Part shown: positions 1-16,914 of the stretch, piece by piece
Layout: each line of letters starts with the position of its first letter
Numbering within the stretch: the stretch's first letter is position 1
NCBI GenBank assembly: GCA_004282875.1
Contig: SHLT01000015.1
Location: 1-37,443, forward strand
Direction: 5' to 3'
Source: Chromatiales bacterium
Lineage (GTDB): Bacteria; Pseudomonadota; Gammaproteobacteria; Steroidobacterales; Woeseiaceae
DNA: 37,443 bases
Notes under the pieces: model-generated
The model's input: only the letters and a program-made list of their open reading frames with translations
What the model was told of the DNA's origin: nothing
Databases searched by the model: none
Program-made: the position numbers and the translations under genes

Positions 1-1183
1 TGTACGGCACGTTCTGTTCGATTTCGCCCGAGTTGATGACATCGACGATGACCCGGTCCCAATCCGAAATCGGCGTCTTGTTGTCGCGCTCGTCGTAGCG
101 GTAGCCGTATTTCACGCGCAGCTTGCTGATGGGTCGTGAGGTGATCGTGAAAGAGTAGTTCACGGTATCGACCTGCGCATCCAGCGACGTGGCGGGGAGT
201 GCCGAAGTCACGACGTCGGGATTGATCGTGTAGGGCAGGAAATCCGCATTTTGCTCGCCACGGCCCGACGCAACGAGAAACGCGACGACCGTGTTGCCGG
301 CGGCCATGCGGTAATTGCCGGCCAGTGAGATTTGCGAGAAGTCGTTGTCGGGTTCGCGGGCCGTGCTGAGCGTCGTGGCCCCCGGTACGGTAAGGAACGG
401 CGTTTCCCACGTGAGGGATGGGTTCTGATTGGTGAAGAACGAGCCGTAGTACGCGAGGGTCAGGCTGACCGCGTCGGACCGGTACTGCACGCCCGCATCG
501 ACCTGGTCCGTTTCGTGATCGACCCAGCGCGGCAGGAACGCAGCCTGCGTGTAACTGCCGGCACTCGAGATGTCGATTCCGTCGCGAGTCTGCCGCCGGA
601 AGTCGGCGAACAGCCGAAACATCTCTGCAGGTGTCCAGTCTGCGCCGACATCGACGATCTGGCGGTCGGTGCCGACGACGCGTTGTTGCAATGACGCAGC
701 AAGCTGCGTCATCTGGTCGGTCGTGCCCGCCGATACCCAGCCGGCAGGCAGCGTCAGCGTGCCGTCCGCAGCCCGGGAGAAAATCGTGCTGGTGGTATCG
801 AAGCGACGGAAAGGCAGTTCGCTATAGCCTGCGCGAAATTCGTACACGCCCTGTCGGCCCATACTGAGCTCGACGGCGCGGGAATCGAGGCCAAGGTCCT
901 CGACCGACCAGTCGAGCCGGTAGCCGTCGTTGACATAGCGGCCGTGGCCGTCAACGTTGCCGTAGGCCCCGTCTTCGTCGTAGCCGGTGTAGTTGCCAAA
1001 GCGTGCCGCTTCGTCGCTGACGTTGGTGACGCCCGCATCGATCTCGGCACGATAGCCCTGCTCAAAGGGGCAGGATTCACATGCCCAGTCGCTCGTATCC
1101 ACCTGCGCGAGGCTGATGGCCGGCGCCAGGAGAATCAGTGGAGCAACGAGTGTGCGGCCTGATTTCATTGTTCGTTTCAACAT
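1..1183 (-). CDS. mtrB: MtrB/PioB-family outer-membrane beta-barrel porin, partial (C-terminus outside window)
   Basis: The reverse strand reads openly from an ATG at 1183 to the window edge, giving 394 residues. The first 26 residues form a signal peptide ending near SLAQ. It is followed at residues 33-40 by WACESCPF, the N-terminal CXXC (C35, C38) typical of gammaproteobacterial MtrB, and by a Gly/Asp/Asn-rich first strand (GNYTGYDEDGAYGNVDG). The remainder alternates short amphipathic stretches ending in aromatic residues, as in a beta-barrel. In the MtrCAB complex this barrel sheathes the decaheme MtrA so that electrons cross the outer membrane. The start is fixed by AGGAG (1193-1197, reverse strand) at good spacing. 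That site overlaps the TAG stop of the upstream decaheme gene, so translation is probably coupled. MtrB proteins are usually about 650-750 residues, so roughly half is missing here. Confidence 0.9.
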   Translation of the reverse strand, partial: MLKRTMKSGRTLVAPLILLAPAISLAQVDTSDWACESCPFEQGYRAEIDAGVTNVSDEAARFGNYTGYDEDGAYGNVDGHGRYVNDGYRLDWSVEDLGLDSRAVELSMGRQGVYEFRAGYSELPFRRFDTTSTIFSRAADGTLTLPAGWVSAGTTDQMTQLAASLQQRVVGTDRQIVDVGADWTPAEMFRLFADFRRQTRDGIDISSAGSYTQAAFLPRWVDHETDQVDAGVQYRSDAVSLTLAYYGSFFTNQNPSLTWETPFLTVPGATTLSTAREPDNDFSQISLAGNYRMAAGNTVVAFLVASGRGEQNADFLPYTINPDVVTSALPATSLDAQVDTVNYSFTITSRPISKLRVKYGYRYDERDNKTPISDWDRVIVDVINSGEIEQNVPY

Positions 1184-1192
1184 CGTTCCAGG

Positions 1193-1197
1193 CTCCT
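1193..1197 (-). promoter_or_regulatory. Shine-Dalgarno of mtrB overlapping the mtrA stop codon
   Basis: AGGAG on the reverse strand lies nine bases before the mtrB ATG (1183) and shares bases with the TAG stop (1196-1198) of the decaheme gene. This selects 1183 over the in-frame ATG at 1168 and suggests coupled translation of the two conduit subunits. Confidence 0.6.
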
Positions 1198-2155
1198 AGC
1201 GCATCAGCTTCGAACCAGACGGGTGATTGGACCCGTGAACCTGGTCATGGCAGTTGAGGCAGGACTGTCCCAGCAGCAGTGCTGAGGGAATATTGTTTGC
1301 GAGGCCGCGGGCATCCTGCGGCACGCTCGGGTGGCCGTCCTGTGAGTGACAGCTTTGGCACAACATCGGGGCACGCATGCTCAGCATGCCCGGCTGCGTC
1401 GAGCCATGTGGGTTATGGCAGCTGTTGCAGTCTTCCGTAACCGGCGCGTGTTCCCAGAGATACGGGCCGCGCAGCTCCGCGTGGCAGTCGTAACAGGTGC
1501 CGTTCACCGTGCTGCCGGCGAGCAGCTGCTCCGTAGTGTCGCCGTGCGGGCTATGGCAGCTCGTGCAGGCCATCTTGCCCTGGCGCACAGGATGCGCGTA
1601 CGGCTTCATTGACTGGGTGCGTTGCTGCTGGTGGCAATCGAAGCAGACGTCTGCCTGTGTTGACGTAGCCAGAACCGGGTCGCGCTCGATATGCATCGTG
1701 TGACAGTCGGAGCAGGCAACCGTGTTGTCGTCATGCGAACTGCCATGCCAGGCGAAACCCGTGTCCGCATCATGGCACGCGGCGCAGTAGGCGTTTTGGT
1801 CCGTAATCGACATCGTGGAGTTCGAACCGAATGCCGGAATCGCCGGCCTTTCTTGGCCACGCCGCACGCGACCGGCGTGATCGCCGGCAGGACCGTGGCA
1901 GGCCTCGCACTGCAGCTGACCTTGCCCGAAGGGAGAGTTCGGGTCCTGTGGCATCGCATGCTTGGTGCGGAACACTGCCAGCGTCGCCTGGTCGTCATGA
2001 CACTGGAAACACGTGTCGGCACCCTTGCGACTGTAGTCGGGGAGTTCGGCCCCGTCGTCAGTCGCCTGGGCATGGGTGATTGCAGGGGTGGCGATGGCCG
2101 CTAGGGCCACCGCCAGTACTGCGAATCTTGCTGTCATTTTAGTGAGCATCTGCAT
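1196..2155 (-). CDS. mtrA: Periplasmic decaheme c-type cytochrome, MtrA/DmsE/PioA family
   Basis: This protein has 319 residues, close to the usual ~330 of the family. An N-terminal signal peptide (hydrophobic FAVLAVALAAIA, cleavage near THAQ) is followed by exactly ten CXXCH heme sites: CFQCH, CEACH, CAACH, CSDCH, CFDCH, CTSCH, CYDCH, CNSCH, CQSCH and CLNCH, spread evenly to the C-terminus. In known complexes MtrA is a heme wire threaded into the MtrB barrel, passing electrons between periplasmic donors and the surface MtrC. The gene lies nine bases after mtrC and is followed by mtrB, the canonical partners. The start is uncertain by a few codons: ATGs occur at residues 1, 3 and 7, and a weak GGA lies just upstream of the first two. 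No DMSO reductase genes (dmsAB) lie in the window, so an MtrA role fits better than a DmsE role. Confidence 0.93.
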   Translation of the reverse strand: MQMLTKMTARFAVLAVALAAIATPAITHAQATDDGAELPDYSRKGADTCFQCHDDQATLAVFRTKHAMPQDPNSPFGQGQLQCEACHGPAGDHAGRVRRGQERPAIPAFGSNSTMSITDQNAYCAACHDADTGFAWHGSSHDDNTVACSDCHTMHIERDPVLATSTQADVCFDCHQQQRTQSMKPYAHPVRQGKMACTSCHSPHGDTTEQLLAGSTVNGTCYDCHAELRGPYLWEHAPVTEDCNSCHNPHGSTQPGMLSMRAPMLCQSCHSQDGHPSVPQDARGLANNIPSALLLGQSCLNCHDQVHGSNHPSGSKLMR

Positions 2156-2164
2156 GTGTCCAGT

Positions 2165-4411
2165 CTAGTTGAACTGGAAGTCACCAACGCCGTGCATCTC
2201 GGCGACATCGGCGCTCGATCCAGGTCCATGACAGAGCTGGCAGGTTTCGACACCGGACGAGACGAGATTGCTGTCGGCGTCCTTCGTCGCATTGAAATCA
2301 CCGCCATTCTGGATCATGTGGTTGGCTGCGAGGTCACTGACGTGGCAGGAGGAGCAGACGGCCGAGTTCGGAGAGACGACGACGTCATCTGTCGGCGTTG
2401 ACGTGTCATTGGCATCGACCGTCGTTCCGAGTACCGCAGTAGGATCCACAGGGTAGAAACCATCTTCGACGTGGCAGCCTTCGCAGTTATTCAGCTTGCC
2501 TGGATAGACGAAGTCAAACGTATGCGGTGTGCCGCCGGACGGGAACGCGAAGCCACATGCCTCGTAGGCTTCGTCCGTGTAGTCGTACGCATGCAACGCG
2601 TGAATCATAACCTTCATATCGACGGTGTTGTCGTCCGTGCCGAAGTCTGTCGCGCATTGACCGGCACGACGGTTGATGTCCGTGACGTTAGGCGCGTGGC
2701 AGGTGACGCACACTTCGATGTTGTCGGTGCGGTTGTTGCCGTGCATCGACAGCTGGTTGTGGCAGTCGTCGCACTTGTCGATATCGACCGCATTGCGGCG
2801 AGTCACCAGCGTGTTCGCGCCGATCGGGGCATAGGCAACAGCATTGGTCACCGCGATGCGCTCGACAACGCCATCGATATCCACGCCCGGGTGGCCATCC
2901 ATCGTGACCGCCAGTGAACCACCGGCATTGGCCGGAATCGCTATCGGCATGGTGACGCTGTAGACACCGTCCTGACCTGCAACCGCTTGTGGTGTACCGC
3001 CCGAACACGGAATCGCGCTCGTAGATGTGGGCAGACCAGGCGTGTTCGCGCCGTTGTTATGGTAGTCCGAAGTTGCCCAGGCGACGCCAACGACGAGTCG
3101 TGACGGGCCGCAGGTCGTCCATTCGGCATCATTCAGGAGATCCCAGGCTACGCCTGTATCCGGATTGTTTACACGATAATGTACGGTCGTGAAATCACCG
3201 ACATTCGTATCGAGGATATCGACAATCTCGAACTCGAACGCAGACTGAGCTTCAATAATCGGCTGCCTGTGTACTTCCGTGACACGCCAGGCGCCGCCGT
3301 TCAGGTCTGAGTCTTCGCCGTGGCAGGTAACGCAGTCCATGTCATCGAGGAACACGAGGCCGCCGAAGTGCAGCTGGTCCGGATCGTTCTCGGATCCATC
3401 CCAGTCAATCCAGTCGTGGCAGGAGCCACAGGAAGCGCGGTTCTGTACCTGGCGCCAGTTACTGGCTTGCGGGATCGTAGTATCGGATTCCTGGTGACAG
3501 GTCGTGCAGTTGCGCACGTCCTGCGGGAAAACGACGTCCGAGTAGTCGTGCAGCGAACTGCGAAAACCGATAATAAAGTATCCGTTGTCCAGGTTTTCAC
3601 CGTAGTGAATCTTGTGGATCATTTCCTTCATGTCCACGGTGCCACCCCACGGCTCGGCAGCCGTGTCGCCGTCTATCGAGTACGGATTGTGGCAGGTCAC
3701 GCAGTATTCGATGTCGAATCGCGCTTCGCCATGGAAGCCGAGGTTGTCGTGGCAGGCGTTGCACGTCGCATTGTTCACGATCAGGCGCGTGTCAATGGGT
3801 GCTCCGCCGGTTGGAACGAAGTCGAAAGGTGCGTTGTTGGCTGGTGCGCCGCCGCGAATTTCAAGGCCGAGGCGGTGAGTTTTGGCCGCATCAAATACGG
3901 GTCCTGCCGGATATGCGGTCAGGGCCTGTGCAAACGTATAGGTGTAGGTACCGTCGCCATTATCAGTAAAGGTGCCTGAGGTCGCGCCTTCGGCATTCGC
4001 CTGTGCATCGGCAATACCGCCGCTGTCGCGCGTGATGTATGACTGCCATTCACTCGACGACCCATCTTGCCCGAGGGATAGCTGGGCGAGCGTGAATCGC
4101 AAGGCGCTGGCCGGCATGTCCTTCAGGCCAAAGCCAACATCGTCGGTCAGGCTCAGCGTCACCGTCGGGGCGCCGCCGCCGGCTGGAACCGTGACGCTCT
4201 GCACTTCGACGTTGATCTTGTCGGCAGCCGTCCAGGAGATGGCGCCGGCAGAGCCCGGAGTTCCAGGCGTTCCGGGCGTGCCCGGAGGTCCTGCTGTACC
4301 CGGAGGCCCGGCGGGGCCGGCGGGACCGGTGGAACCATCGCATGCGAAGAGTAGGGCGCTGGCGAGCAGCAGACCTACCAATCCTGTATTGCGGCTGAAT
4401 GAGCGTCTCAT
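2165..4411 (-). CDS. mtrC: Outer-membrane surface decaheme c-type cytochrome lipoprotein, OmcA/MtrC family, with collagen-like linker
   Basis: The start at 4411 (MRRSFSRN) is preferred over an upstream in-frame ATG. It is preceded by AAGGGG and immediately yields a lipoprotein signal, LLLASALLFAC (Cys24). Directly after the lipid-anchor Cys come ten uninterrupted Gly-X-Y triplets (residues about 26-56), a collagen-like spacer. There are ten CXXCH sites in two groups of five (CNACH, CVTCH, CTTCH, CGSCH, CVTCH; then CDDCH, CVTCH, CEGCH, CSSCH, CQLCH) separated by about 160 residues of beta-rich sequence. This is the pentaheme/beta/pentaheme layout of OmcA/MtrC proteins. The mature protein of ~725 residues is in the family range. 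The role is terminal exchange of electrons with extracellular acceptors or donors. Two Cys in the middle beta domain (TTCGPS and AIPCSGG) could form a disulfide. It is first in the mtrC-mtrA-mtrB operon. Confidence 0.93.
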   Translation of the reverse strand: MRRSFSRNTGLVGLLLASALLFACDGSTGPAGPAGPPGTAGPPGTPGTPGTPGSAGAISWTAADKINVEVQSVTVPAGGGAPTVTLSLTDDVGFGLKDMPASALRFTLAQLSLGQDGSSSEWQSYITRDSGGIADAQANAEGATSGTFTDNGDGTYTYTFAQALTAYPAGPVFDAAKTHRLGLEIRGGAPANNAPFDFVPTGGAPIDTRLIVNNATCNACHDNLGFHGEARFDIEYCVTCHNPYSIDGDTAAEPWGGTVDMKEMIHKIHYGENLDNGYFIIGFRSSLHDYSDVVFPQDVRNCTTCHQESDTTIPQASNWRQVQNRASCGSCHDWIDWDGSENDPDQLHFGGLVFLDDMDCVTCHGEDSDLNGGAWRVTEVHRQPIIEAQSAFEFEIVDILDTNVGDFTTVHYRVNNPDTGVAWDLLNDAEWTTCGPSRLVVGVAWATSDYHNNGANTPGLPTSTSAIPCSGGTPQAVAGQDGVYSVTMPIAIPANAGGSLAVTMDGHPGVDIDGVVERIAVTNAVAYAPIGANTLVTRRNAVDIDKCDDCHNQLSMHGNNRTDNIEVCVTCHAPNVTDINRRAGQCATDFGTDDNTVDMKVMIHALHAYDYTDEAYEACGFAFPSGGTPHTFDFVYPGKLNNCEGCHVEDGFYPVDPTAVLGTTVDANDTSTPTDDVVVSPNSAVCSSCHVSDLAANHMIQNGGDFNATKDADSNLVSSGVETCQLCHGPGSSADVAEMHGVGDFQFN

Positions 4412-4635
4412 GTCATACCCCTTGAACTTAGTTTTGCCTGAAACTTTGCGGGTTGTGTCGGTCACCGTTCATGGCGCATTCAGGAACGGTCTTTTGTAAT
4501 GTCCTTTCTAGGGAATTTGGACCGATTCTTGAATCGCGAAAACTACCTATGGATTCTCGGTATGTAGCAGGACGACAACAGGTGCGATCTATGTACAATT
4601 ATCTCGGGCCCAACCGGGCTTCTAGGAGACTACAA
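4412..4635. promoter_or_regulatory. Divergent promoter region between mtrC and the cytochrome c4-like gene
   Basis: These 224 bases separate two diverging cytochrome genes and must hold both promoters. I see a perfect inverted repeat, CGATTC-TT-GAATCG, at 4523-4536 that could be an operator. A TACAAT (4594-4599) could be the -10 of the plus-strand gene, but no good -35 lies at the expected distance. AGGAG at 4624-4628 is the ribosome site of the c4 gene. No clear FNR-type box (TTGAT-N4-ATCAA) was found by eye. Confidence 0.4.
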
Positions 4636-5244
4636 ATGAAACGAAAATTTATCTTTGTTTTATCAGCACTTACGCTTGGAATCCCGGCACTGGCCAGCGC
4701 AGATGTCGACGCCTTGATGCAGGATTGCAACAGCTGCCACGGTGATAACGGCGTGAGCCAGTCGAGCGATATTCCGACAATTGCGGGCCTCGCCGAGTTT
4801 GTGCACGTTGATGCCCTGTTTATTTACCAGGACGAAGCGCGCCCCTGTAAGGAATCCGAGTACCGCCAGGGCGACACGAGCCGTGCTGCTACAACGATGT
4901 GTGCGCTAGCCGCCGATCTGAGTGAGGACGACATCGAAGCGCTTGCCATGGCCTATGCCGAGCTGCCCTACGTGAAAGCCACACAGGAATTCGATGCGGA
5001 CAAGGCTGCTGCTGGCAAGGCAATCCACGACAAGGATTGCGATCGCTGCCATACCGAGGAAGGCACCAATCCTGACGACGAAGCCGGCATGCTTGGCGGA
5101 CAACAGATGGGTTACCTGCGTGACACGTTTGCCGCCTACGCGGATGGCTCGCGCGAGCAACCCGGAAAGATGCAACAGAAGCTCGACGCATTGTCTGCGG
5201 ATGACATAGAGGCGCTGGTCCACTATTACGGCAGCGTTCAATAG
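4636..5244 (+). CDS. Periplasmic diheme cytochrome c, c4/c553-like
   Basis: The start is set at ATG 4636 (MKRKFIFVL), which follows AGGAG at seven bases and begins with a clean signal peptide cleaved near ASADV; a longer in-frame reading from 4453 has no leader. The 202-residue product has two class-I cytochrome c domains, with CNSCH at residue 31 and CDRCH at residue 135. Each is followed by a candidate axial Met (TTM before residue 90, GKM near 168) and the LSxDDIEAL C-terminal helix typical of c4. Cytochromes c4 are soluble or loosely bound two-domain electron shuttles. Here it is transcribed away from mtrC and lies just before the 19-heme fusion gene, so a shuttle between inner-membrane quinol oxidase and MtrA is plausible (inference). 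Two extra cysteines (residues 71 and 89) in domain 1 are not heme ligands and may form a disulfide. Confidence 0.85.
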   Translation: MKRKFIFVLSALTLGIPALASADVDALMQDCNSCHGDNGVSQSSDIPTIAGLAEFVHVDALFIYQDEARPCKESEYRQGDTSRAATTMCALAADLSEDDIEALAMAYAELPYVKATQEFDADKAAAGKAIHDKDCDRCHTEEGTNPDDEAGMLGGQQMGYLRDTFAAYADGSREQPGKMQQKLDALSADDIEALVHYYGSVQ

Positions 5245-5425: not shown

Positions 5426-8287
5426 ATGACTCAGCCGAATCGGCCTGCCAGTTTCTTGCGCGCGCTATCACTCCTGTCCCGGCCCTCGACTCGGGGTCCC
5501 GGAAATCAATGGTTCGCGGCCGTCGTTGCCGCGATTCTATGGTTTGCCGGCAGCCCGGCAATGGCCCAGGAAGACAGCCGGTGTCTCAGGTGTCATGACG
5601 ATCCGGAACTGACTGCCCTCAAGGGCGATACCGAGATATCGGCTCACGTCACTGCGGAGATGATCGCAGGGTCGGTCCACGCCGAGCTAACGTGCGTCGA
5701 ATGCCACAGTGACCTCGCGGGCAGCAAACGTCGGCGGCATGCCGAAGAGCTCGAGCTCGTGGTCTGCGACGATTGCCACAGGCGTGAAGCCAGAGCGCAT
5801 GGTAGAAGTCTCCATGGCGTTGCGGCGGAGCAAGGCGACCCGATGGCTCCGACTTGTGCCGACTGCCACGGCAAACACGATGTTCTGTCCGCCGCGAATA
5901 CCGACTCGCCGACCGCAGTGATGAATATCCCGGTCCTTTGTGGCAACTGTCATCGAGAGGGAGCCCCGGTATCTCGCACGCACGAAATATCGCAGGACAA
6001 TATTCTCGAAAATTATTCGATGAGCATGCACGGAGAGGGCCTGTTCTCGCAGGGCCTGACCGTCACAGCAGTCTGTACTTCCTGCCACACGTCGCATGAC
6101 ATTCTGCCGCACACCGATCCGAAGTCGAGCATCCACGCAGACAATGTCGGAGAGACTTGCACCGCATGCCACAGTCAGATTGAAAATGTGCACCGCAAGG
6201 TAATCGAGGGAAATCTGTGGACCGAAGATCCGGGCAAGATCCCTGCCTGCGTCGATTGCCACGCCCCACACAAGATTCGCAATGTTTTCTATCCCGATGG
6301 CCTGGCTGACAAGGATTGCCTCACTTGCCATGCTCAGGAAGACCTGACAATGGATCGCGACGGCGCGACCGTCAGTCTGTACGTCGATGAGAACGCTTAT
6401 GAGAACTCGGCGCATGCGGATACGGCGTGTGCTCAATGTCATACGGACGTCACTGTTGCCGAAGAGCGCGCCTGCTCAACGATCGAGACCAAGGTCGACT
6501 GCGCCATCTGTCATGCCGAGCAGGTGACGGAGTACGACGGCAGTACGCACGGAACGCTGCACGCTGAGAACGACCCGGATGCACCGTCTTGCCAGGACTG
6601 TCACGCCAAGCACGCGACGCTGAGCAAGGAAACGCAGGCGTCGCCAACCTATGCACTCAATGTGCCGACGCTCTGCGGTGAGTGTCACCGTGTCGGTGAG
6701 CAGGCTGCGACGCGCATAGACGCGAAGGTCGAAGACATTGTCGGGAGCTATGAAGACAGTGTGCACGGCCGCGGCTTGATCGAGAGCGGCCTTGTCGTAA
6801 CGGCAACGTGTGCGGATTGCCATGGGGCACATAACGAACTTCCCCCGGAAGACCCGAACGCGTCGACGAATCCACAGAATATCGCCGGGACCTGCGGTTC
6901 CTGCCATCACGGGATCGAGGAGCAGTTCCGCGAGAGTGTCCACTGGACCAGCGACCCGATCGCCGAGGATGATCACCCCACTTGCGAAGACTGCCATGCC
7001 TCGCACACGATCATGCGCACGGAGCAGATCGGGTTCCGGGACCTCATGATGGAGCAGTGTGGACGTTGTCACACTGACGAGACCGAAACTTTCTTCGATA
7101 CGTTCCACGGCAAGGTTTCGCGCCTGGGCGGTGAAGGCGTCGCGAAGTGCTACGACTGCCATGGTACCCATGACATTCTGAGCCCGTCCGATCCGGCCTC
7201 GCACCTGGGTCGCGACAATGTTGTCGAAACCTGCGGCCAATGCCACGAGGGATCACATCGGCAATTTGCGGGCTACCTGACACACGCGACGCATCATGAT
7301 CGCGAGCAGTACCCGTACCTGTTCTGGTCGTTCTGGGGTATGACGGCGTTACTGGTTGGCACCTTGTCCTTTGCTTTCCTGCACTCATTCGCCTGGGTAA
7401 TCCGGCTAATGCTGAATCGTAAGGAATGGCAGGCCCACAAGGCGCTGAGCCAGAGTAGAGAACAGAAATTCTACCGGCGATTCAGCCGCCTCCAACGCAC
7501 GATGCATATCATCATGATGCTCAGCTTCTTTATGCTTGCCCTGACCGGCATGGCGCTGAAGTTCTCGTATATGCCGTGGGCACAGGCTGTCTCCGACTTC
7601 CTGGGCGGCTTTGACAGCATGGGCTTCCAGCACCGCGTTGGCGCGTTTGGCCTGCTAATCGTCTTTGTTCTCCACGCCTACGACATTGTTAATTACAAAC
7701 GCCGGACGAAGCAGACGATGTGGCAGATCATTACCGGACCGGACTCGATCATCTTCAACGGTCGTGATCTCAAGGAGTTTGTACAGTCCGTCAAGTGGTT
7801 CTTCGGTTTCGGTGAGCGCCCGGATTATGGTCGCTATACCTACTGGGAGAAGTTCGATTACTTCGCGGTCGGCTGGGGTATTATCATCATCGGTTCGACA
7901 GGACTCGTCTTGTGGTTCCCCGAGCTCTTCACGCGCATCGTTCCGGGCTGGGCCGTCAACGTAGCGACTATCATTCATAGTGACGAAGCGCTGCTCGCAG
8001 TCGGCTTCATCTTCACGATTCACTTCTTCAACACGCACTTCCGGCCCGACAAGTTCCCGATGGATCCTGTGATTTTCACCGGGCGCATTTCCGTCGACGA
8101 GCTGAAGTATGACAAGCCGGGCGAATACGAGAAGCAAGTGGAGTCCGGTGAGCTTGAGGGCAACCTCGTGAGAGCGTTCCCGCGGACCAAAGACAAGGGC
8201 GTGAGAATATTCGGATTCCTGGCGCTCACATTTGGACTGGTGCTACTGGGTCTGATCGTCTACGCGATGTTGTTCGGCTATCGTTAA
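5426..8287 (+). CDS. 19-heme c-type cytochrome fused to a cytochrome b561/FdnI-like membrane domain (CbcL-like quinol oxidoreductase)
   Basis: The product has 953 residues. A signal peptide with a long polar start ends near residue 48 (SPAMA). Residues ~53-608 carry 19 CXXCH motifs. Hemes 2-9 and 10-17 are two copies of one eight-heme block: for example the SPT...N.P.LCG.CHR segment recurs at about 161 and 406, followed each time by VHG/MHG, CTSCH/CADCH and a matching tail. From ~632 on come about six membrane helices with paired histidines (MHIIMMLSF, HRVGAF, VLHAY, IIHSDEALL, IHFFNTHF), as in diheme-b subunits of formate dehydrogenase and thiosulfate reductase. The HFFNTHFRPDKFPMDP tail segment is shared with the 11-heme protein at 9720-11606. 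This architecture matches Geobacter CbcL (multiheme c plus cytochrome b), a quinol oxidase for extracellular electron transfer, but with about twice as many c hemes. The quinol-oxidising role is inference. Confidence 0.88.
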   Translation: MTQPNRPASFLRALSLLSRPSTRGPGNQWFAAVVAAILWFAGSPAMAQEDSRCLRCHDDPELTALKGDTEISAHVTAEMIAGSVHAELTCVECHSDLAGSKRRRHAEELELVVCDDCHRREARAHGRSLHGVAAEQGDPMAPTCADCHGKHDVLSAANTDSPTAVMNIPVLCGNCHREGAPVSRTHEISQDNILENYSMSMHGEGLFSQGLTVTAVCTSCHTSHDILPHTDPKSSIHADNVGETCTACHSQIENVHRKVIEGNLWTEDPGKIPACVDCHAPHKIRNVFYPDGLADKDCLTCHAQEDLTMDRDGATVSLYVDENAYENSAHADTACAQCHTDVTVAEERACSTIETKVDCAICHAEQVTEYDGSTHGTLHAENDPDAPSCQDCHAKHATLSKETQASPTYALNVPTLCGECHRVGEQAATRIDAKVEDIVGSYEDSVHGRGLIESGLVVTATCADCHGAHNELPPEDPNASTNPQNIAGTCGSCHHGIEEQFRESVHWTSDPIAEDDHPTCEDCHASHTIMRTEQIGFRDLMMEQCGRCHTDETETFFDTFHGKVSRLGGEGVAKCYDCHGTHDILSPSDPASHLGRDNVVETCGQCHEGSHRQFAGYLTHATHHDREQYPYLFWSFWGMTALLVGTLSFAFLHSFAWVIRLMLNRKEWQAHKALSQSREQKFYRRFSRLQRTMHIIMMLSFFMLALTGMALKFSYMPWAQAVSDFLGGFDSMGFQHRVGAFGLLIVFVLHAYDIVNYKRRTKQTMWQIITGPDSIIFNGRDLKEFVQSVKWFFGFGERPDYGRYTYWEKFDYFAVGWGIIIIGSTGLVLWFPELFTRIVPGWAVNVATIIHSDEALLAVGFIFTIHFFNTHFRPDKFPMDPVIFTGRISVDELKYDKPGEYEKQVESGELEGNLVRAFPRTKDKGVRIFGFLALTFGLVLLGLIVYAMLFGYR

Positions 8288-8296
8288 GAACTGGTC

Positions 8297-8337
8297 CCCG
8301 GCATCATCCTTTGCCATGATGCCGGGTATCGTTTCTT
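8297..8337 (+). terminator. Probable intrinsic terminator after the 19-heme gene
   Basis: A perfect 11-bp stem (CCCGGCATCAT / ATGATGCCGGG, 8-base loop) is followed by the T-rich TATCGTTTCTT. It lies ten bases after the stop and upstream of nhaD, so nhaD may receive only part of the transcript or use its own promoter. Confidence 0.6.
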
Positions 8338-8357
8338 ACGCTTAGGAAGAACTCACA

Positions 8358-9695
8358 TTGGATCTGACCGGACACTGGGTTGGTGCAACCGCCCTCGTTT
8401 TATTCGTGCTGGCGTACTTGCTGGTAATCGTTGAAGAGTTTACGCACCTCAGGAAATCCAAACCCGTCATCCTGGCAGCGGGACTGATCTGGGCCATCAT
8501 CGCCTATCAGTACGCGACGGCGGGTATCACGCATGAGACGGAGGAGGCCGTTCGGCATTTCCTCACCGAATTTGCGGAGTTGTTCCTGTTCCTGCTCACG
8601 GCCATGACGTATGTCAACGCCATGAGTGAGCGCCGTGTTTTTGAAGCGCTACGATCGTGGCTCGTCAATCGGCAATATAGCTATCGCAAGCTGTTCTGGA
8701 TTACCGGCATCCTCGCGTTCTTCCTGTCACCTATCATCGATAACCTTACGACGGCCCTGGTGATGTGCGCGGTATTGCTGGCGGTCGGCAAAGACAATAA
8801 GAAGTTCGTCAGCATCGGCTGCGTCAACATCGTGGTGGCTGCAAATGCGGGCGGAGCTTTCAGTCCATTTGGTGACATCACTACGCTTATGGTCTGGCAA
8901 AGAGGCGTACTGGATTTCCAGACGTTCTTCGCGCTCTTCATACCATCCGTCGCCAATTACCTGGTGCCGGCTGTTCTCATGTCGTTGGCGGTACCCCGAG
9001 CGACCCCGGACGCGGAGAGCGAGGTTATCGAAATGCAGCGTGGCGCCAAGAGGATGATGTTTCTCTTCGGTTGCACCATCGCGACAGCCGTTGGGTTTCA
9101 TAACTTCCTGCACCTCCCGCCATTCCTCGGCATGATGACGGGACTCGCGTACCTTCAGATCTTCGGCTATTACCTGCGCATCACGCATGATTCAGAATCC
9201 GGCAACGCGAAGCCCCGTGGCAGGCACGGAGAGGTCACGGCATTCGACAGCTTTCGAGAGATTGCGCGCGCCGAATGGGACACGCTGCTGTTCTTTTTTG
9301 GCGTGATCATGTGTGTCGGCGGCCTGGGGTTCATTGGCTACCTCGATCATTTGTCGCTGTACGCCTATACGGAACTCGGCGCGACCGTTGCCAACATACT
9401 GGTCGGTATTGCGTCCGCCATCGTCGACAACATTCCCGTCATGGTTGCGGTCCTGCAGATGTATCCCGAGATGGATGTGGCGCAATGGTTGCTGGTCACC
9501 TTGACCGCAGGCGTTGGCGGCAGTCTTCTCTCCATCGGATCCGCGGCGGGCGTCGCACTGATGGGCCAGGCGCGTGGACAATACACGTTCTTTTCCCATC
9601 TCAAGTGGACGCCGGCAATTGCTGCCGGCTTCGCACTCAGTATCTGGGTGCATTTTCTGGTCAACAGCCACTACATCGGGATCGTCCCGACGTAG
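8358..9695 (+). CDS. nhaD: NhaD-type Na+/H+ antiporter
   Basis: This is a 445-residue polytopic membrane protein with about 11-12 hydrophobic helices. It has the two inverted-repeat signatures of the NhaD/ArsB (ion transporter) superfamily: SPIIDNLTTALVM near residue 120 and ASAIVDNIPVMVAVL near 355. It also carries the GGAFSPFGDITTLMVW and GGSLLSIGSAAGVALMG re-entrant segments. The role is exchange of internal Na+ for external H+ in the inner membrane, known mainly from marine and alkaliphilic bacteria. The start appears to be TTG at 8358: AGGAAG lies eight bases upstream and no ATG fits. Its position inside a cytochrome cluster, together with Na+-NQR at 23.2-30.3 kb, suggests a sodium cycle linked to this respiratory chain (inference). 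Confidence 0.88.
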   Translation: MDLTGHWVGATALVLFVLAYLLVIVEEFTHLRKSKPVILAAGLIWAIIAYQYATAGITHETEEAVRHFLTEFAELFLFLLTAMTYVNAMSERRVFEALRSWLVNRQYSYRKLFWITGILAFFLSPIIDNLTTALVMCAVLLAVGKDNKKFVSIGCVNIVVAANAGGAFSPFGDITTLMVWQRGVLDFQTFFALFIPSVANYLVPAVLMSLAVPRATPDAESEVIEMQRGAKRMMFLFGCTIATAVGFHNFLHLPPFLGMMTGLAYLQIFGYYLRITHDSESGNAKPRGRHGEVTAFDSFREIARAEWDTLLFFFGVIMCVGGLGFIGYLDHLSLYAYTELGATVANILVGIASAIVDNIPVMVAVLQMYPEMDVAQWLLVTLTAGVGGSLLSIGSAAGVALMGQARGQYTFFSHLKWTPAIAAGFALSIWVHFLVNSHYIGIVPT

Positions 9696-9720
9696 GCCAG
9701 GCGCCTTGCTGCGCCTGACC
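9695..9720. terminator. Stem-loop between convergent nhaD and 11-heme cytochrome genes
   Basis: The sequence GGCCAGGCGC-CTTGCT-GCGCCTGACC forms a 10-bp stem with one mismatch, exactly filling the gap between two convergent stop codons. It could serve as a bidirectional terminator, although T-runs are short on both sides. Confidence 0.5.
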
Positions 9721-11606
9721 TAGGTGTCTTTCTCGGGAGTCTCCCCGTAGACGACCTCACCGCGTTCCTCGGCCCTCGAGAAAGGCGGTTTGCCGGTAAG
9801 CCAGGTCATATCCATCGGGTAGACCGCCGGGTCGAGCATAACCGAGTAGAAATGCCAGATAAGGATTGCCAGTGTCGCCAGGACTGCCTCGAGGAAATGC
9901 AGAACCGTGGCGGCTTCAGGCACCCAACCCGGGAGCCATGCCAGTGTAAGGTTCTCGAACCACAACACTAGTCCCGTAATCGCCGTGACGAACGTACCCC
10001 ACAGTGCGGCCCAATATTCGACTTTCTCAACGTAGCCGACGCGTACCGGGGCCGGTGGGTCGGAACGCAGCCCCAGGTTGTAGCCGGTCCGGTGAACAAA
10101 CTCCCTGAAATCGGCGGTCTTCGGCAGGAAAGCTGCCATCTGACCGCGCGCGCGCGCGCTGATTGCGAGATGGCCGAAATGTATCAGGCAGGCTCCCATG
10201 AGACCCACGGCGGCAATACGATGGACCACGCCGCGAAATTCGTTGTCCCCGAACTGCAGCAACTCGGCCCACCAGCTTTCCGGGTACTTCAATGCAAACC
10301 CTGTGTACACGAGCACGAAGAAGCTGACGGCTGCCAAGGCGTGCATAAGTCGAAATGGTCGTGACATGCGTTCCTTGATCGAGCTTTGCTCGGGAGCCCG
10401 GCGCCGCCACAATGAATAGGTGCGCGTCTTCTTGACCAGGTCGAGCAGATTGTGCAGCAGCATGCCGATGACGGTGACCCAGATCAGTGGAATGTAGATC
10501 TTCCGGATCCAGTAGGCGACGACGTTGGGGGTGTCGTCGGCTATCACATGCACGGGACCGATCGTAAACCGGGTTCCCGCTCCGGCATGGCATTGTCCGC
10601 AGGTCTCCGCCAGGTTGTCCGGATGCGTATGCGAGTCCGGATCGGTCGACGGCAGAATGTTGTGCACGCCGTGGCAGCTTGCGCAATTGGCGACGCGTTG
10701 TGAACCACCGCGTGCGGCCAGTCCATGAAAGCTCTCGCCATAGGAGGGGACCTGGTCCGCGGGCAGGCCGTATTTCTCGCTGAGCTTGAGGTCTGAGTGG
10801 CAGGGACCACAAACCTGGATCGGGACGTTGCTGGCCGAAACAGGCGATCCCGGAGCCGCAATCGCTAGAATCCGATGCTCGCCATGACAATCTGTGCACA
10901 CCGGCGATTCGTAGACGCCGGCAGCTGCCGCCATCCCGTGAATGCTGCGATCGAATTGCCTGGTGATTTTTCTATGGCAACCTCCGCAAGTGTCGGGAAC
11001 GTTCTGACGGTGAATCGAAGAATCCGGATCGGTGGCGGGCAATGGCGAGTGGGCTGAATGACAATCGCTGCAACCGGGTCCCGGGTCATGATCGTGCACA
11101 GCTTGTGCGTGCACGCTGGCCGTGTAGGCTGCGATCGGGCGAATAGTCGACACGCTTCGTTCCGTAGGCGGTTCCGCACCATGACAAGCCCCGCAGGTCT
11201 CACCCTGGGAGAGGGAGGAAACCGGGGACGATTCGTCTGTGTACGGCATCATCGTGTGGACTTCGCCGTGACAATCTGTGCAGCTCGGCAGAATCGGGTC
11301 AGGGAATTTCTGCGGACCCAACTCGCCGTGGGCGCTCGTCGACTGCTCCTCGACGACGTCGTCGTGACAGGATCCGCAGTCGACGGGATCGAGCCCGCGC
11401 TTATGCCGTCGTTCGTCAGCGCCAACGTGGCAGTCGAGGCACTCGGTCGTGCCGTGTACAGTGGCCTCAAATTGCGCCAGGTCCGTTTCGTGGCAGTCGA
11501 GGCAAGGATTTGCCTGTGCGGTATCGTCCGCTGTCGAGGTGAGCGGAAGGCAGGCAAAGAGGAGAAGGGCGATGCCGGTAGTAAACGTACGCACAGCGAT
11601 ACTCAC
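9720..11606 (-). CDS. 11-heme c-type cytochrome fused to a cytochrome b membrane domain (second CbcL-like protein)
   Basis: The product has 628 residues. After a signal peptide (cleavage near TSTADD, residue 26) come 11 CXXCH sites between residues 35 and 340, arranged in the same style of units as the 19-heme protein (CTDCHGEH...SPVSASNVPIQVCGPCH; NILPSTDPDSHTHPDNLAETCGQCH is nearly the same phrase as in the larger protein). From ~363 there are about five membrane helices with histidine pairs (LLHNLLDL, LMHALAAVSF, VVHRIAA, IHFGHLAI, TVLHFLEAV, WHFYSVMLDPAVYPMD). It is evidently a paralogue of the 953-residue protein, with about half the heme domain. The likely role is quinol:periplasmic cytochrome electron transfer in the inner membrane (inference). 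It is transcribed alone, divergently from the NapC-frd operon. A 15-base CG run (10145-10159) lies within its coding sequence. Confidence 0.85.
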   Translation of the reverse strand: MSIAVRTFTTGIALLLFACLPLTSTADDTAQANPCLDCHETDLAQFEATVHGTTECLDCHVGADERRHKRGLDPVDCGSCHDDVVEEQSTSAHGELGPQKFPDPILPSCTDCHGEVHTMMPYTDESSPVSSLSQGETCGACHGAEPPTERSVSTIRPIAAYTASVHAQAVHDHDPGPGCSDCHSAHSPLPATDPDSSIHRQNVPDTCGGCHRKITRQFDRSIHGMAAAAGVYESPVCTDCHGEHRILAIAAPGSPVSASNVPIQVCGPCHSDLKLSEKYGLPADQVPSYGESFHGLAARGGSQRVANCASCHGVHNILPSTDPDSHTHPDNLAETCGQCHAGAGTRFTIGPVHVIADDTPNVVAYWIRKIYIPLIWVTVIGMLLHNLLDLVKKTRTYSLWRRRAPEQSSIKERMSRPFRLMHALAAVSFFVLVYTGFALKYPESWWAELLQFGDNEFRGVVHRIAAVGLMGACLIHFGHLAISARARGQMAAFLPKTADFREFVHRTGYNLGLRSDPPAPVRVGYVEKVEYWAALWGTFVTAITGLVLWFENLTLAWLPGWVPEAATVLHFLEAVLATLAILIWHFYSVMLDPAVYPMDMTWLTGKPPFSRAEERGEVVYGETPEKDT

Positions 11607-11811: not shown

Positions 11812-13218
11812 ATGTTTAAGAATTTCCTTGCATCGATAACCCATAATAGCGTCAGTTTTATTGGCACGGCGATCGCCGTTGCCATGCTGGTGCTGATGGC
11901 GAGCCTGTTTGCCATGGAGCTTTGGGGCTTCGAAGGCGGCCCGTACATTGGCATCCTGACGTACTTGATCTTGCCCATGATATTTGTCTTCGGGCTGATC
12001 CTGATTCCGATTGGTGCGGTACTTTACCGACGTAAGCTACGTCGAATGGATGGCAGTGAAGACACACCATTGCTTCCTGTATTCGATCTGAACGTGAAGG
12101 CCACGCGACGCTGGATGCTGATTCTCGCGGCTGCAACGATGTTGAATATTGTCATTGTGGCCGGCGCAACCTACAAGGGCGTGCATGTCATGGAGACGGT
12201 TGAGTTTTGTGGCCTTGCCTGTCATTCGGTCATGGAGCCCGAGCACACTGCTCATGCCCGTTCACCGCACTCCCGCGTTGCCTGCGCAGAGTGCCACATC
12301 GGTCCTGGCGCCGACTGGTTCGTCAAATCGAAACTGGATGGTGCCTGGCAGCTGGTGTCCGTGGCATTTGACCTGTATCCACGCCCGGTACCGACGCCCT
12401 TGCACGATTTGCGCCCGGCACGAGAAACCTGCGAGCAGTGCCATTGGCCGACGAAATTCGTCGGCGACAAGCTCAAGGTAATCAAGCACTACGAAGAGGA
12501 TGAAGAGAACACCGAGTTGACGACGGCGCTATTGCTAAAGGTCGGCGGTTCCCGCGCCAACAATTCACACGGGATTCACTGGCACGTCGATCGAGATGTC
12601 GATATTCGCTACCGCTCGGATGAGACGCGCGAGGAAATTTACGAGATCGAGTTCACGCATGGCGAGAACGAGACGATTACGTACGCGGACCGTAGGGCTC
12701 CCGAGGACGGCGGCGTCTGGCGCTCGATGGACTGCGTCGACTGTCATAACCGGCCATCGCATATCTATGAGTCCCCGGGTCCCGCTATCGACGAGGCCAT
12801 GGTATCCGGCCTGATCGATCGAACGCTGCCGTTCGTCAAGCGCGAAAGCCTGCGGATCATCAAGACGGAGTACGAGTCTCACGAAGTGGCGCGCGATGCG
12901 ATAAACGGCGAATTCGCGGCGTTCTACGCGGCGAACTATCCCGACATCGCAAACGAGCGGGCAGAGGACATCGCGGCCGCCGCGACAGTGCTTGGCGATA
13001 TCTATTCGGTCAACGTATTCCCGGGAATGAATGTTTGGTGGGATACCTATCCAAATCACATCGGGCACGAGCAATCGGATGGTTGCTTCCGATGCCACAG
13101 GCGCAGCATGCGAACAGCGGACAGGGAGCAGGTCTCGACTGACTGCGAGAATTGCCACGTCCTGCTCGCGGAGGAAGAAGAGAACCCCGACATCATGTCG
13201 GTCTTGAGGCCAGAGTAA
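11812..13218 (+). CDS. NapC/NirT/ImcH-like membrane-anchored multiheme cytochrome c, predicted quinol dehydrogenase
   Basis: The product has 468 residues. The N-terminus has two close membrane helices (about 12-36 and 46-72) and a third (101-118) that anchors the periplasmic domain. Five standard CXXCH motifs are seen (CAECH, CEQCH, CVDCH, CFRCH, CENCH). The first site is CGLACH (residues 133-138), a CX3CH motif, followed by SVMEPE, which matches the first-heme region of NapC/NrfH-type proteins (CHXM). Members of this group (NapC, NirT, CymA, Geobacter ImcH) take electrons from quinol and hand them to periplasmic cytochromes. The protein is more than twice the size of NapC and nearer to ImcH. 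Its stop overlaps the frdC start (TAATG at 13216-13220), so it is co-translated with a fumarate reductase, an unusual partner. Confidence 0.82.
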   Translation: MFKNFLASITHNSVSFIGTAIAVAMLVLMASLFAMELWGFEGGPYIGILTYLILPMIFVFGLILIPIGAVLYRRKLRRMDGSEDTPLLPVFDLNVKATRRWMLILAAATMLNIVIVAGATYKGVHVMETVEFCGLACHSVMEPEHTAHARSPHSRVACAECHIGPGADWFVKSKLDGAWQLVSVAFDLYPRPVPTPLHDLRPARETCEQCHWPTKFVGDKLKVIKHYEEDEENTELTTALLLKVGGSRANNSHGIHWHVDRDVDIRYRSDETREEIYEIEFTHGENETITYADRRAPEDGGVWRSMDCVDCHNRPSHIYESPGPAIDEAMVSGLIDRTLPFVKRESLRIIKTEYESHEVARDAINGEFAAFYAANYPDIANERAEDIAAAATVLGDIYSVNVFPGMNVWWDTYPNHIGHEQSDGCFRCHRRSMRTADREQVSTDCENCHVLLAEEEENPDIMSVLRPE

Positions 13219-13970
13219 TGAAGACTCTTGCGGCAACACCCGCGTCGCATTCGCTGACGCATGAAATTATCAGTGGCGGCAGCGGGCTCGTACTCGCGCT
13301 GTTCATGTGGGGCCACGTGGTCCTGGTTGGCTCGATCCTGACCGGGGAACGCGGTTTTGACTGGATGGCGACGTTTCTCGAGGACTATTACATCGCGCAG
13401 CCGACTGTTGCAGTCATCTTCGCCCTGTTTCTGGTGCATGCGGTATTCGCGGCACGCAAGGTCCCGGCGCAATTGCGAGAACGCAAACGAATCATCGCGC
13501 TGGCGAAGGGGCTCAGCCGGTCCGGCCGAGAAAAGGTAGCCACACGGACTGAACACTCGCCATTTCGGCCTCACGTCGAATCCATGCTCTGGATCTGGCA
13601 GGTACGGACCGGAATGGTCATGCTCGTGCTAGGCAGTTTCCACCTGATACTGCTAGGGCTGGACGTATTCACACCGTTGTTCGGCGACATCGCCGGTATC
13701 GAGTCGCAAACGTCGATGGCCAGGGTCGGTGCAGGGCTGTGGTTGCCCTACGCGATACTGCTGCTGTGTGTTGAATTCCATGCGAGCGTCGGCCTGTATC
13801 GGCTCGCGATCAAATGGGGCGCGGATCTCTGGCTGTCCCGCAGTGCAATGCATCTCATCGAGCAGATTATTTTCTGGACGATTCTCGTGATCGGCGGCCT
13901 CACGTTGTGCGTCCTGGCGGGCTGGGTGGATCCTCCGCTCGCATTCCTGCTTGAAGGAGGTGCGTCGTGA
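13218..13970 (+). CDS. frdC: Fumarate reductase / succinate dehydrogenase diheme cytochrome b subunit (Wolinella type)
   Basis: The start is ATG 13218, overlapping the previous stop by one base; an earlier in-frame start at 13152 would lie inside the NapC-like gene. The 250-residue product has five membrane helices. The VEFHASVGLYRLAIKWG segment (near residue 186-201) closely matches the heme-binding fourth helix of Wolinella succinogenes FrdC. Candidate heme ligands are H33, H74, H142 and H188, fitting a di-heme b subunit. This subunit anchors FrdAB to the inner membrane and exchanges electrons with (mena)quinone. The length agrees with the ~255 residues of epsilon/delta-proteobacterial FrdC and differs from the separate FrdC/FrdD pair of enteric Gammaproteobacteria. 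Confidence 0.85.
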   Translation: MKTLAATPASHSLTHEIISGGSGLVLALFMWGHVVLVGSILTGERGFDWMATFLEDYYIAQPTVAVIFALFLVHAVFAARKVPAQLRERKRIIALAKGLSRSGREKVATRTEHSPFRPHVESMLWIWQVRTGMVMLVLGSFHLILLGLDVFTPLFGDIAGIESQTSMARVGAGLWLPYAILLLCVEFHASVGLYRLAIKWGADLWLSRSAMHLIEQIIFWTILVIGGLTLCVLAGWVDPPLAFLLEGGAS

Positions 13971-15913
13971 CGGGAAGGCTGGTTACAACGGATGTTCTCA
14001 TCATTGGCGGCGGGCTCGCCGGTGAACGCTGCGCCATCGAGGCAGCCGCCGCAGGGCACGAGGCGATCATCCTGTCATTGGTCCCACCGCGCCGCAGCCA
14101 CAGCTGCGCGGCGCAGGGCGGAATGCAGGCATCGCTGGCCAATTGTGTCAAGGCGGCCGGCGATAATCCCACGGTCCATTTCCTCGACACGGTGCGCGGT
14201 TCGGATTGGGGCGCCGACCAGGAAGTTGCGACTATTTTTGCCGAGGAAGCGCCGATCGCCGTTCGCGAGCTTGCGCATTTCGGTGTGCCGTGGTCGCGGG
14301 TACGCGGCGGCAAGAATCACTACTTCATCAAGGGTGAAGAAGTCGACATCGATGAATCGCTGGAGAACGACGGGCTTATCGGTCAGCGCGACTTTGGCGG
14401 TACCGCGAAGTGGCGCGCCTGCTACGCAGCGGCGGGTACGGGTCATGCAGCCCTGTACGCGGTGGATAGCGAAGTCGTCCGGCTGGGCATCACGGTGCGC
14501 GACCGGACCGAGGCCGTGGCACTGATTCATGACGGCAGCCGGTGCACTGGCGCAGTTGTTCGCGACCTGCGCAATGGCTCGCATTTCACCGTCATCGCCA
14601 AGGCAACGGTCATTGCGACTGGCGGTTACGGCCGCATCTACGGGCAGTACACCAGTAACGCGACGATCAACGAGGGTACGGGTGCAGCCATTGCACTCGA
14701 TACCGGCGTCGTGCCGCTTGGCAACATGGAGGCCGTGCAGTTCCATCCGACCACCCTGTCACCAAGCGGCATTCTGGTCACAGAAGGATGCCGAGGCGAC
14801 GGTGCCTACCTGCTTGACAAGAATGGCGACCGTTTCATGGTCGAGCTCGAGCCCGAGAAGCAGGAACTCGCCAGTCGCGACGTGGTTTCCCGCCATATGC
14901 AGCAGCGTATGCGCGATGGCCTGGGCATCGACTCGCCTTACGGTCCGCACCTTTGGCTCGACTGTCGGCATCTTGGTGAGGAGCACATGCGCACCAAGCT
15001 ACTCGAGGTCTGGGATATCTGCCGGGACTTCGTCGGCCGAAATCCCGCGAAGGATCTGATTCCCGTGCGCCCGACGCAGCATTATTCGATGGGTGGTGTG
15101 CGCGTGAACAAGGATGGCCAGGCGTACGGCCTGGCGGGGCTGTTCGCGGTCGGCGAGGCATCGTGCTGGGACATGCATGGCTTCAACCGGCTTGGCGGTA
15201 ACAGCCTTTCCGAAACCCTGGTCAGCGGCAGGATCGTGGGGCGACGGGTCGCCGAGTATGCGTCCGGTCATGCACTCAGAGCCGACACCGGATTGGCTTT
15301 TGCGGCATTGGCCGACGCCGAACGCAAGGCGGCGAACTGGCTGGCGCGCAGCGGGTCAGGACCTAACGTCTACGAGATTCGTGACGCAATGGGCGAAACG
15401 ATGATGCACAAGGTCGGCATCTTCCGGAACGGCGACGAGCTGCAGGAAGCCATCGCAGAGCTCGGTCAATTATTGGATGACTGCGACAACGCCGTCCTGC
15501 GCTGCAAGGATCCGGGCGTCAATCCTGAACTGGCTTTTGCGCTGCGGCTGAAAGGCATGCTACGCCTTGCAATGACCGTGGCGAAGGGCGCGCTGGCGCG
15601 TACCGAGAGTCGCGGCGCGCATTATCGGTCAGACTATCCGCTGCGCAACGACAAGGAGTGGCTGAGCCGAACGCTGGTTCGCTGGGGCGCCGGTGACAGC
15701 GAGCCGACGCTAAGCTACGAGCCGACCGGCATCATTGACTTGCCGCCCGGGCATCGTGGCTATGGCAGCGACGAGCGTATCGAGATGACTGAAACACTCG
15801 AGAAACATAATGAAGACGTGCTGCAGGAGCAGACACGTCACGGCCGACTGGCCAGTACCGAAGACATGGGCAGCCGATTGCGTCGTGGTGCCTGGAAATC
15901 TGCAACAGGATAG
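13967..15913 (+). CDS. frdA: Fumarate reductase / succinate dehydrogenase flavoprotein subunit
   Basis: GTG start at 13967 overlaps the frdC stop (GTGA) and is preceded by the strong site AAGGAGGT, so coupling is clear. The 648-residue product has an N-terminal dinucleotide fold (IIGGGLAGE), the covalent-FAD histidine in RRSHSCAAQGGMQ (H45), the substrate-site motifs QFHPTTL, TEGCRGDGAYLL and QHYSMGGVRV, and the C-terminal capping and helical domains. No export signal is present, so the active site faces the cytoplasm. It reduces fumarate to succinate, or the reverse, with electrons via FrdB. FrdA and SdhA cannot be told apart by motifs alone; the Wolinella-like partner FrdC and the C-A-B gene order favour a QFR-type enzyme, though diheme enzymes of this type can also run as succinate:menaquinone reductases. 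Confidence 0.93.
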   Translation: MTGRLVTTDVLIIGGGLAGERCAIEAAAAGHEAIILSLVPPRRSHSCAAQGGMQASLANCVKAAGDNPTVHFLDTVRGSDWGADQEVATIFAEEAPIAVRELAHFGVPWSRVRGGKNHYFIKGEEVDIDESLENDGLIGQRDFGGTAKWRACYAAAGTGHAALYAVDSEVVRLGITVRDRTEAVALIHDGSRCTGAVVRDLRNGSHFTVIAKATVIATGGYGRIYGQYTSNATINEGTGAAIALDTGVVPLGNMEAVQFHPTTLSPSGILVTEGCRGDGAYLLDKNGDRFMVELEPEKQELASRDVVSRHMQQRMRDGLGIDSPYGPHLWLDCRHLGEEHMRTKLLEVWDICRDFVGRNPAKDLIPVRPTQHYSMGGVRVNKDGQAYGLAGLFAVGEASCWDMHGFNRLGGNSLSETLVSGRIVGRRVAEYASGHALRADTGLAFAALADAERKAANWLARSGSGPNVYEIRDAMGETMMHKVGIFRNGDELQEAIAELGQLLDDCDNAVLRCKDPGVNPELAFALRLKGMLRLAMTVAKGALARTESRGAHYRSDYPLRNDKEWLSRTLVRWGAGDSEPTLSYEPTGIIDLPPGHRGYGSDERIEMTETLEKHNEDVLQEQTRHGRLASTEDMGSRLRRGAWKSATG

Positions 15914-16767: not shown

Positions 16768-16914
16768 ACGTATTCTCTCGCGCTCGTGCCTCCTGTTGTA
16801 TTAGACGGAGGGGAATACCGAGCGCAGTTCAGGTACTGCCAGCCAATAGGCAGTAGCGCACAATCAACGCCTGATCGACCTTTCAAGTGCGACAAGACAC
16901 GGGGAGAGGTAGAT

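Follow-up and report, generated by a model that had tools for sequence, protein, structure and literature searches.

A marine-sediment Woeseiaceae genome carries an mtrCAB operon divergent from genes for PdsA-, CbcL-, and ImcH-like cytochromes

The mtrCAB conduit itself is already known, including in Woeseiaceae, a family counted among the most abundant bacterial groups in marine sediment (PMC12175321) and is not named in the main text of a 2022 survey of MtrCAB systems. Two kinds of inner-membrane quinone oxidoreductase are relevant here. Proteins of the CbcL/MtrH/MtoC type carry 3 to 23 CX2CH heme sites followed by about six transmembrane helices of the HydC/FdnI type (PMC6295460), and ImcH is described as having three N-terminal transmembrane helices, an adjoining atypical CX3CH site, and 5 to 9 CX2CH sites. 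In Geobacter, ImcH is required above about -100 mV and CbcL below it (PMC9129911). A 2018 survey reported no mtrAB or mtoAB genes adjoining imcH, and the open-licence literature that we searched yielded no later report of such a pairing. Here, we analyze a 37,443-nucleotide window, the entire contig C16 (SHLT01000015.1) of a Woeseiaceae metagenome-assembled genome (GCA_004282875.1; 3.39 Mb, 86% complete, 210 contigs) from marine sediment. The window carries mtrCAB next to divergent genes that resemble both kinds of oxidoreductase. We put the probability at about 78% that this locus supplies the greater part of a chain for extracellular electron transfer, in which two alternative types of quinol oxidase feed a reductive Mtr conduit.

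The conduit genes occupy the left end of the window:

2165..4411, minus strand: mtrC, a 748-amino-acid surface decaheme lipoprotein cytochrome of the OmcA/MtrC family
1196..2155, minus strand: mtrA, a 319-amino-acid decaheme cytochrome that sits within the porin
2..1183, minus strand: 5' part of mtrB (394 of 705 amino acids), the outer-membrane porin sheath

An earlier note on this DNA, made from the letters alone, had read these genes as an operon for extracellular electron exchange, and its structural claims hold. The order mtrC-mtrA-mtrB lies on one strand at the coordinates that it gave, the gap between mtrC and mtrA is 9 bp (ACTGGACAC), and the TAG stop of mtrA runs into a Shine-Dalgarno-like TAGGAG located 12 bp ahead of the mtrB ATG. 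By motif count, MtrC and MtrA each contain exactly ten CXXCH sites; shuffled controls of the same composition averaged 0.03 (MtrC) and 0.09 (MtrA), with a maximum of 2 in 2000 shuffles. The porin has a single CXXC, CESC at residue 35. MtrC starts at the ATG at 4411, scores 490 bits against TIGR03507 (cut-off 209), aligns with MtrF 3pmq (E value of 4e-51) and with MtrC 4lm8/6r2q_C, and has a lipobox (LLFAC) whose Cys24 is invariant across 18 relatives. Model score, heme count, and lipoprotein signal thus place it in the OmcA/MtrC family. MtrA scores 285 bits against TIGR03508 (cut-off 192) and aligns end to end with 6r2q_A (residues 35-319 on 54-333; E value of 1e-85), a chain that is MtrA and carries a wrong database label; together with its ten hemes, this assigns it to the MtrA/DmsE decaheme family. 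Besides the lipobox residue, MtrC has four non-heme cysteines (434, 469, 586, and 619). Most close relatives share 434, 586, and 619, which raises the possibility of disulfide bonds.

The third gene runs off the window, and the earlier note had held that a truncated or frameshifted mtrB would overturn its reading. The 5' half alone scores 253 bits against PF11854 (cut-off 23) and 240.4 bits against TIGR03509 (cut-off 240.05). A search of the same genome returned two half matches, one at the window edge and one at the start of contig C77: PF11854 positions 3-332 fall in the window and positions 323-635 on C77, without stops. The remaining mtrB lies at G000:C77:1-990 (L003:1-990), where G000 is the window genome, and an exact 55-bp overlap between the contigs yields an uninterrupted frame of 705 amino acids. 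Looking past the left edge, as the earlier note had advised, therefore completed mtrB; the further conduit genes that it suggested looking for there do not appear in the next 6 kb downstream. The nearest named record is that of an uncultured Woeseiaceae bacterium (CALZJH010000003.1, the same contig as G030:C3), hereafter the sister, whose MtrC is 95% identical. A single 403-kb contig of the sister genome holds mtrC-A-B unbroken, with identities of 92-96%. Its intact MtrB matches 6r2q_B of Shewanella baltica over its whole length (19-695; E value of 6e-72), and in this alignment, made with the sister protein as the query, CESC falls on CKGC. Full-length model coverage, the N-terminal CXXC, and the open frame place the protein in the MtrB/PioB porin family. 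With three intact genes in one operon, an outer-membrane electron conduit is strongly supported by protein families, heme counts, and an undamaged mtrB.

The genes divergent from mtrC are as follows:

4412..4635: 224-bp intergenic region between mtrC and the pdsA-like gene; the divergent arrangement is conserved
4636..5244, plus strand: PdsA-like periplasmic diheme cytochrome (202 amino acids, 2 CXXCH)
5426..8287, plus strand: CbcL/MtrH/MtoC-like quinone oxidoreductase (953 amino acids, 19 CXXCH plus a six-helix b-type cytochrome domain)
8358..9695, plus strand: NhaD Na+/H+ antiporter
9720..11606, minus strand: second CbcL/MtrH-like protein (628 amino acids, 11 CXXCH plus a b-type cytochrome domain)
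11812..13218, plus strand: ImcH-like quinol oxidase (468 amino acids; three N-terminal transmembrane helices, an atypical CX3CH, and 5 CX2CH)

The earlier note saw nothing else in the window to flag a metal reducer. This view does not stand, as the stretch from 4.6 to 19.4 kb carries these PdsA-like, CbcL/MtrH-like, and ImcH-like genes along with fumarate reductase and tetraheme/NrfC/NrfD genes; nor is the lineage unflagged for such metabolism, since mtrCAB of benthic Woeseiaceae is already in print (PMC12175321, PMC11442690). The 19-heme protein matches PF01292 and the formate dehydrogenase gamma subunit. Its predicted structure has six transmembrane helices, and the best fold match is FdnI, the cytochrome b subunit of formate dehydrogenase-N (1kqf_C; Z of 14.6, target TM-score of 0.80), followed by the cytochrome b of hydrogenase-1. 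The 11-heme protein scores 43 bits against PF01292 (cut-off 30) and aligns with the 19-heme form. The b-domain histidines, invariant in 33 relatives, are present in both copies, which with 19 and 11 heme sites show the CbcL/MtrH/MtoC architecture. NhaD (NF038006, 601 bits; cut-off 80) lies between the two, and this sub-module order is repeated in locus L044 and partly in L068.

The gene at 11812 scores 31 bits against NapC/NirT PF03264 (cut-off 24). Its CX3CH (CGLACH) is invariant in 14 homologues, and three hydrophobic segments precede it at the N terminus, which corresponds to the published ImcH architecture; its structure model (mean predicted local distance difference test score of 52) was too poor for a fold search. 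A CymA label was discarded for this gene because CymA is a tetraheme NapC/NirT protein with a single transmembrane helix, whereas this protein has three helices and six heme motifs. In the mtrC/pdsA-like intergenic region, the block ATCGCGNNANNTAC is common to nine aligned loci, and we infer a regulatory role for the region.

Taken together, these genes suggest the following route. Menaquinol would be oxidized in the inner membrane by the CbcL/MtrH-type proteins, with 19 and 11 c hemes on six-helix b-cytochromes, and by the ImcH-type protein. Electrons would then traverse the periplasm, probably via the PdsA-like diheme cytochrome, and pass the outer membrane along the ten hemes of MtrA, enclosed in the MtrB barrel. 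The ten hemes of the lipoprotein MtrC would hand them on to an extracellular acceptor such as Fe(III) or Mn(IV) minerals or an electrode. If Geobacter is a guide, the two quinol oxidase types may serve acceptors of different potentials. The sequences show that the genes are intact, to which families MtrC, MtrA, and MtrB belong, how many hemes they carry, that the synteny is conserved, and that the genome has menaquinone, hydrogenase, and RuBisCO genes; assembly of the complex, this route, its outward direction, and the acceptors are what we infer from them.

The arrangement of PdsA-, CbcL-, and ImcH-like genes next to mtrCAB recurs across Woeseiaceae. A tree of concatenated MtrC, MtrA, and MtrB sequences gives full support to a 34-row clade that includes the window; most of its rows are Woeseiaceae, and the Shewanella row lies far from it. 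A divergent PdsA-like gene stands upstream of mtrC in 29 of the 31 loci of this clade whose upstream sequence exceeds 1.5 kb; where it exceeds 6 kb, a CbcL-like gene is found in 17/25 and an ImcH-like gene in 14/25. Across 37 genomes of the genus, mtrC and the CbcL-like gene occur together in 16, mtrC alone in 6, the CbcL-like gene alone in 4, and neither in 11 (Fisher's exact test, P = 0.008), and the table for mtrC and the ImcH-like gene is identical (16/6/4/11, P = 0.008). The CbcL-like and ImcH-like genes are themselves tightly associated (19 genomes with both, 1 and 1 with either, 16 with neither; P = 2e-8). These tests ignore relatedness among the genomes. The divergent genes of the sister locus are PdsA-like, CbcL-like, ImcH-like, fumarate reductase, tetraheme, NrfC, and NrfD, with NqrA further along.

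Some loci depart from this pattern. In the sister, a different, 11-heme CbcL-like gene fills the slot beside the pdsA-like gene, and the homologue of the 19-heme gene lies on that contig at a distance of about 300 kb (G030:C3:379545-382325), while in the window (module at 5426-11606) the 19-heme gene itself adjoins the pdsA-like gene; the 19-heme form is at the mtr locus in other species. The quinol oxidase slot thus appears exchangeable. Another Woeseiaceae metagenome-assembled genome (L083, JANQPG010000093.1) has a distant mtrCAB outside the main clade of the family, which was probably acquired separately.

Further along the plus strand, the divergent genes continue:

13152..13970, plus strand: frdC, fumarate reductase cytochrome b (start uncertain; overlaps the upstream gene)
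13967..15913, plus strand: frdA, fumarate reductase flavoprotein
15920..16678, plus strand: frdB, fumarate reductase iron-sulfur subunit
16786..17388, plus strand: tetraheme c-type cytochrome (4 CXXCH; doubled CXXCH domain)
17385..18155, plus strand: NrfC/TtrB/DsrO-like 4Fe-4S protein
18160..19413, plus strand: NrfD-like membrane quinol-interacting subunit

The fumarate reductase is of the Wolinella type: frdA scores 941 bits against PRK08626 (cut-off 663) and frdB 366 bits against PRK13552 (cut-off 264), and frdC reaches 112 bits against PRK13553, below the cut-off of 187, and 41 bits against PF01127 (cut-off 26). The tetraheme protein has no match to NetB (NF049875), so that label was set aside and the locus is not a NetBCD cluster by this measure. 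The 4Fe-4S protein scores 207 bits for TtrB (cut-off 416) and 197 for DsrO (cut-off 200), and the NrfD-like protein scores 116 bits against PF03916 (cut-off 26).

The quinone pool available to these proteins differs within the genus. We compared the window genome (G000) and the sister (G030) with the other genus genomes in G001-G036 and G060-G063. MenD and MenB score above cut-off in the window genome; among the genus genomes searched, MenD (37 genomes) and MenB (41 genomes) each pass only in the window genome and the sister. MqnA of the futalosine menaquinone route (PF02621) is absent in all 41. In the sequence available, therefore, neither known menaquinone route is present in the 20 other mtrC carriers of the genus, several of which (G002, G015, G021, G022, G023, and G027) are 98-100% complete. 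Ubiquinol is a weaker reductant than menaquinol, so these carriers may rely on Mn(IV) or another acceptor of high potential, on rhodoquinone, or on inward electron flow. A tentative extension, which we regard as possible rather than probable, is that in most mtrCAB-bearing Woeseiaceae the conduit works on a menaquinone-free pool (ubiquinone or rhodoquinone), for high-potential acceptors such as Mn(IV) or for inward flow, and that menaquinone genes were a secondary gain in the window lineage and its sister, for which Fe(III) of lower potential could be an acceptor. The locus would then be a two-gear joining of Geobacter-type quinol oxidases with a Shewanella-type conduit.

Genes for hydrogen metabolism are also present. 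The window genome encodes a NiFe hydrogenase (G000:C203:1520-3079). Past mtrB, C77 carries hypE, hypF, hypD, and hypB at 7.4-12.6 kb, i.e., hydrogenase maturation genes 6-12 kb from mtrB (L003:7427-12606), followed by another diheme cytochrome at 12.9 kb. In G033, a hydrogenase lies about 4.5 kb from mtrC; this, together with the maturation genes near mtrB, suggests hydrogen as a donor.

Two further cytochrome clusters lie elsewhere in the genome. On C77 (L004:2168-8575, at about 22-28.6 kb), genes for a 299-amino-acid membrane protein without a Pfam match and for 21-heme and 19-heme c-type cytochromes accompany that of an 819-amino-acid protein with SPOR/TPR parts and a possible barrel; this may be a second, undescribed electron transfer system. 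Outside the mtr locus, on C192 (L037:301-5236), the gene for a decaheme OmcA-like lipoprotein is followed by one for an eight-heme form, and the pair are candidate further surface cytochromes.

In the window species, the menaquinone genes, fumarate reductase, ImcH-like gene, and hydrogenase favor outward flow. Several points weigh against a reductive conduit with two quinol oxidases. The PdsA-like protein matches NF049874 over its full length at 180 bits, under the exception cut-off of 330, so a strict PdsA label was rejected. The CbcL and ImcH labels are putative, drawn from architecture and, for the 19-heme protein, from the predicted fold. Six of the 22 mtrC-bearing genomes of the genus have neither the CbcL-like nor the ImcH-like gene. 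Finally, electron uptake has to be considered: in other bacteria, Mtr and CbcL/MtrH/MtoC proteins can carry electrons either way, and a RuBisCO large subunit gene, accompanied by CbbQ- and CbbO-like genes, is present in the genome (L126, G000:C186). In that case, Fe(II), reduced minerals, an electrode, or partner cells would supply electrons through MtrCAB, and the CbcL/MtoC-type proteins would reduce quinones in support of CO2 fixation by RuBisCO. The sister likewise has RuBisCO, and MtoC, a CbcL homologue, is found in Fe(II) oxidizers, with no sequence feature telling the directions apart (PMC6295460). Against this, ImcH homologues have so far been implicated only in quinol oxidation, and descriptions of MtoAB and PioAB include no MtrC, which this operon does encode; filing the operon under oxidative PioAB/MtoAB was rejected because mtrC is its first gene. 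Among the 37 genus genomes, only six others gave a RuBisCO match (in one case a weak match, in another from a genome that has no mtrC), hydrogen could equally feed RuBisCO, and the menaquinone genes and fumarate reductase point to low-potential anaerobic respiration. Reading direction from an Mtr tree was dropped as an approach because oxidizing and reducing homologues do not form distinct groups (PMC8805035). On balance, we consider an inward conduit rather unlikely.

A dedicated function for the MtrAB homologues, as part of a DmsEFAB-like extracellular reductase of DMSO or iodate instead of a general metal or electrode conduit, would fit the name of the matched MtrA model (DmsE family) and the DmsB/TtrB-like Fe-S protein and NrfD at the locus. 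Yet the product of the third conduit gene is a decaheme lipoprotein of the OmcA/MtrC family rather than a molybdopterin reductase, and the conserved relatives likewise carry MtrC. No molybdopterin catalytic subunit was seen among the window open reading frames of at least 150 amino acids that were read or searched, and a DmsEF filing was dropped on that account; we hold this function to be very improbable. Slightly less probable still is a nonfunctional remnant or an assembly chimera, which the contig end within mtrB and the fragmented assembly might suggest. The contig overlap with its open frame refutes a remnant mtrB, the gene order is identical on the single sister contig, and the heme and partner genes are strongly conserved in about 30 relatives. 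The reductive conduit with two quinol oxidase types thus remains the reading that we prefer. Given the abundance of Woeseiaceae, the presence of an intact conduit together with its quinol oxidases is relevant to the question of which organisms reduce iron and manganese in sediments, and the distribution of menaquinone genes makes it testable which quinone feeds Mtr in this family and whether the quinone sets direction and acceptor.

Among characterized systems, MtrCAB of Shewanella (S. oneidensis; S. baltica 6R2Q) shares with the window the three-part conduit, the decaheme MtrA in the MtrB barrel, the decaheme lipoprotein MtrC, the N-terminal CXXC of MtrB, and the order mtrC-mtrA-mtrB. However, the window MtrC is only distantly similar and groups in a separate clade in the concatenated tree, and CbcL-, ImcH-, and PdsA-like partners replace the separately encoded CymA, FccA, and CctA of Shewanella. 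The mtrABC-cymA-mtrH cluster of Rhodoferax ferrireducens (PMC6295460) also combines a CbcL/MtrH-type b-c cytochrome with mtrABC, but the partner of that cytochrome is CymA, whereas here it is an ImcH-like protein. Compared by description, Geobacter CbcL shares the N-terminal c hemes and six transmembrane helices of the FdnI/HydC type, with nine c hemes versus 19 or 11 in the window, and Geobacter ImcH shares the three transmembrane helices, one CX3CH, and CX2CH sites, with six of the latter versus 5; in the window, these quinol oxidases would be coupled to an Mtr conduit. The mtrCAB-pdsA-netBCD loci of Aeromonas and Vibrio (PMC8805035) likewise have a pdsA-like diheme gene adjoining mtrCAB and Nrf-like Fe-S and NrfD genes nearby; they differ in that the window protein scores below the PdsA cut-off and a tetraheme cytochrome takes the place of NetB. 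Closest are the benthic Woeseiaceae (PMC12175321, 2025; PMC11442690, 2024), with the same family, the same three genes, and the same inferred role. In these two papers we found gene presence only, and neither the divergent PdsA-CbcL-ImcH-fumarate reductase arrangement nor the quinone gene distribution. It is this composite locus and this distribution, rather than the conduit, that might be new to a specialist.

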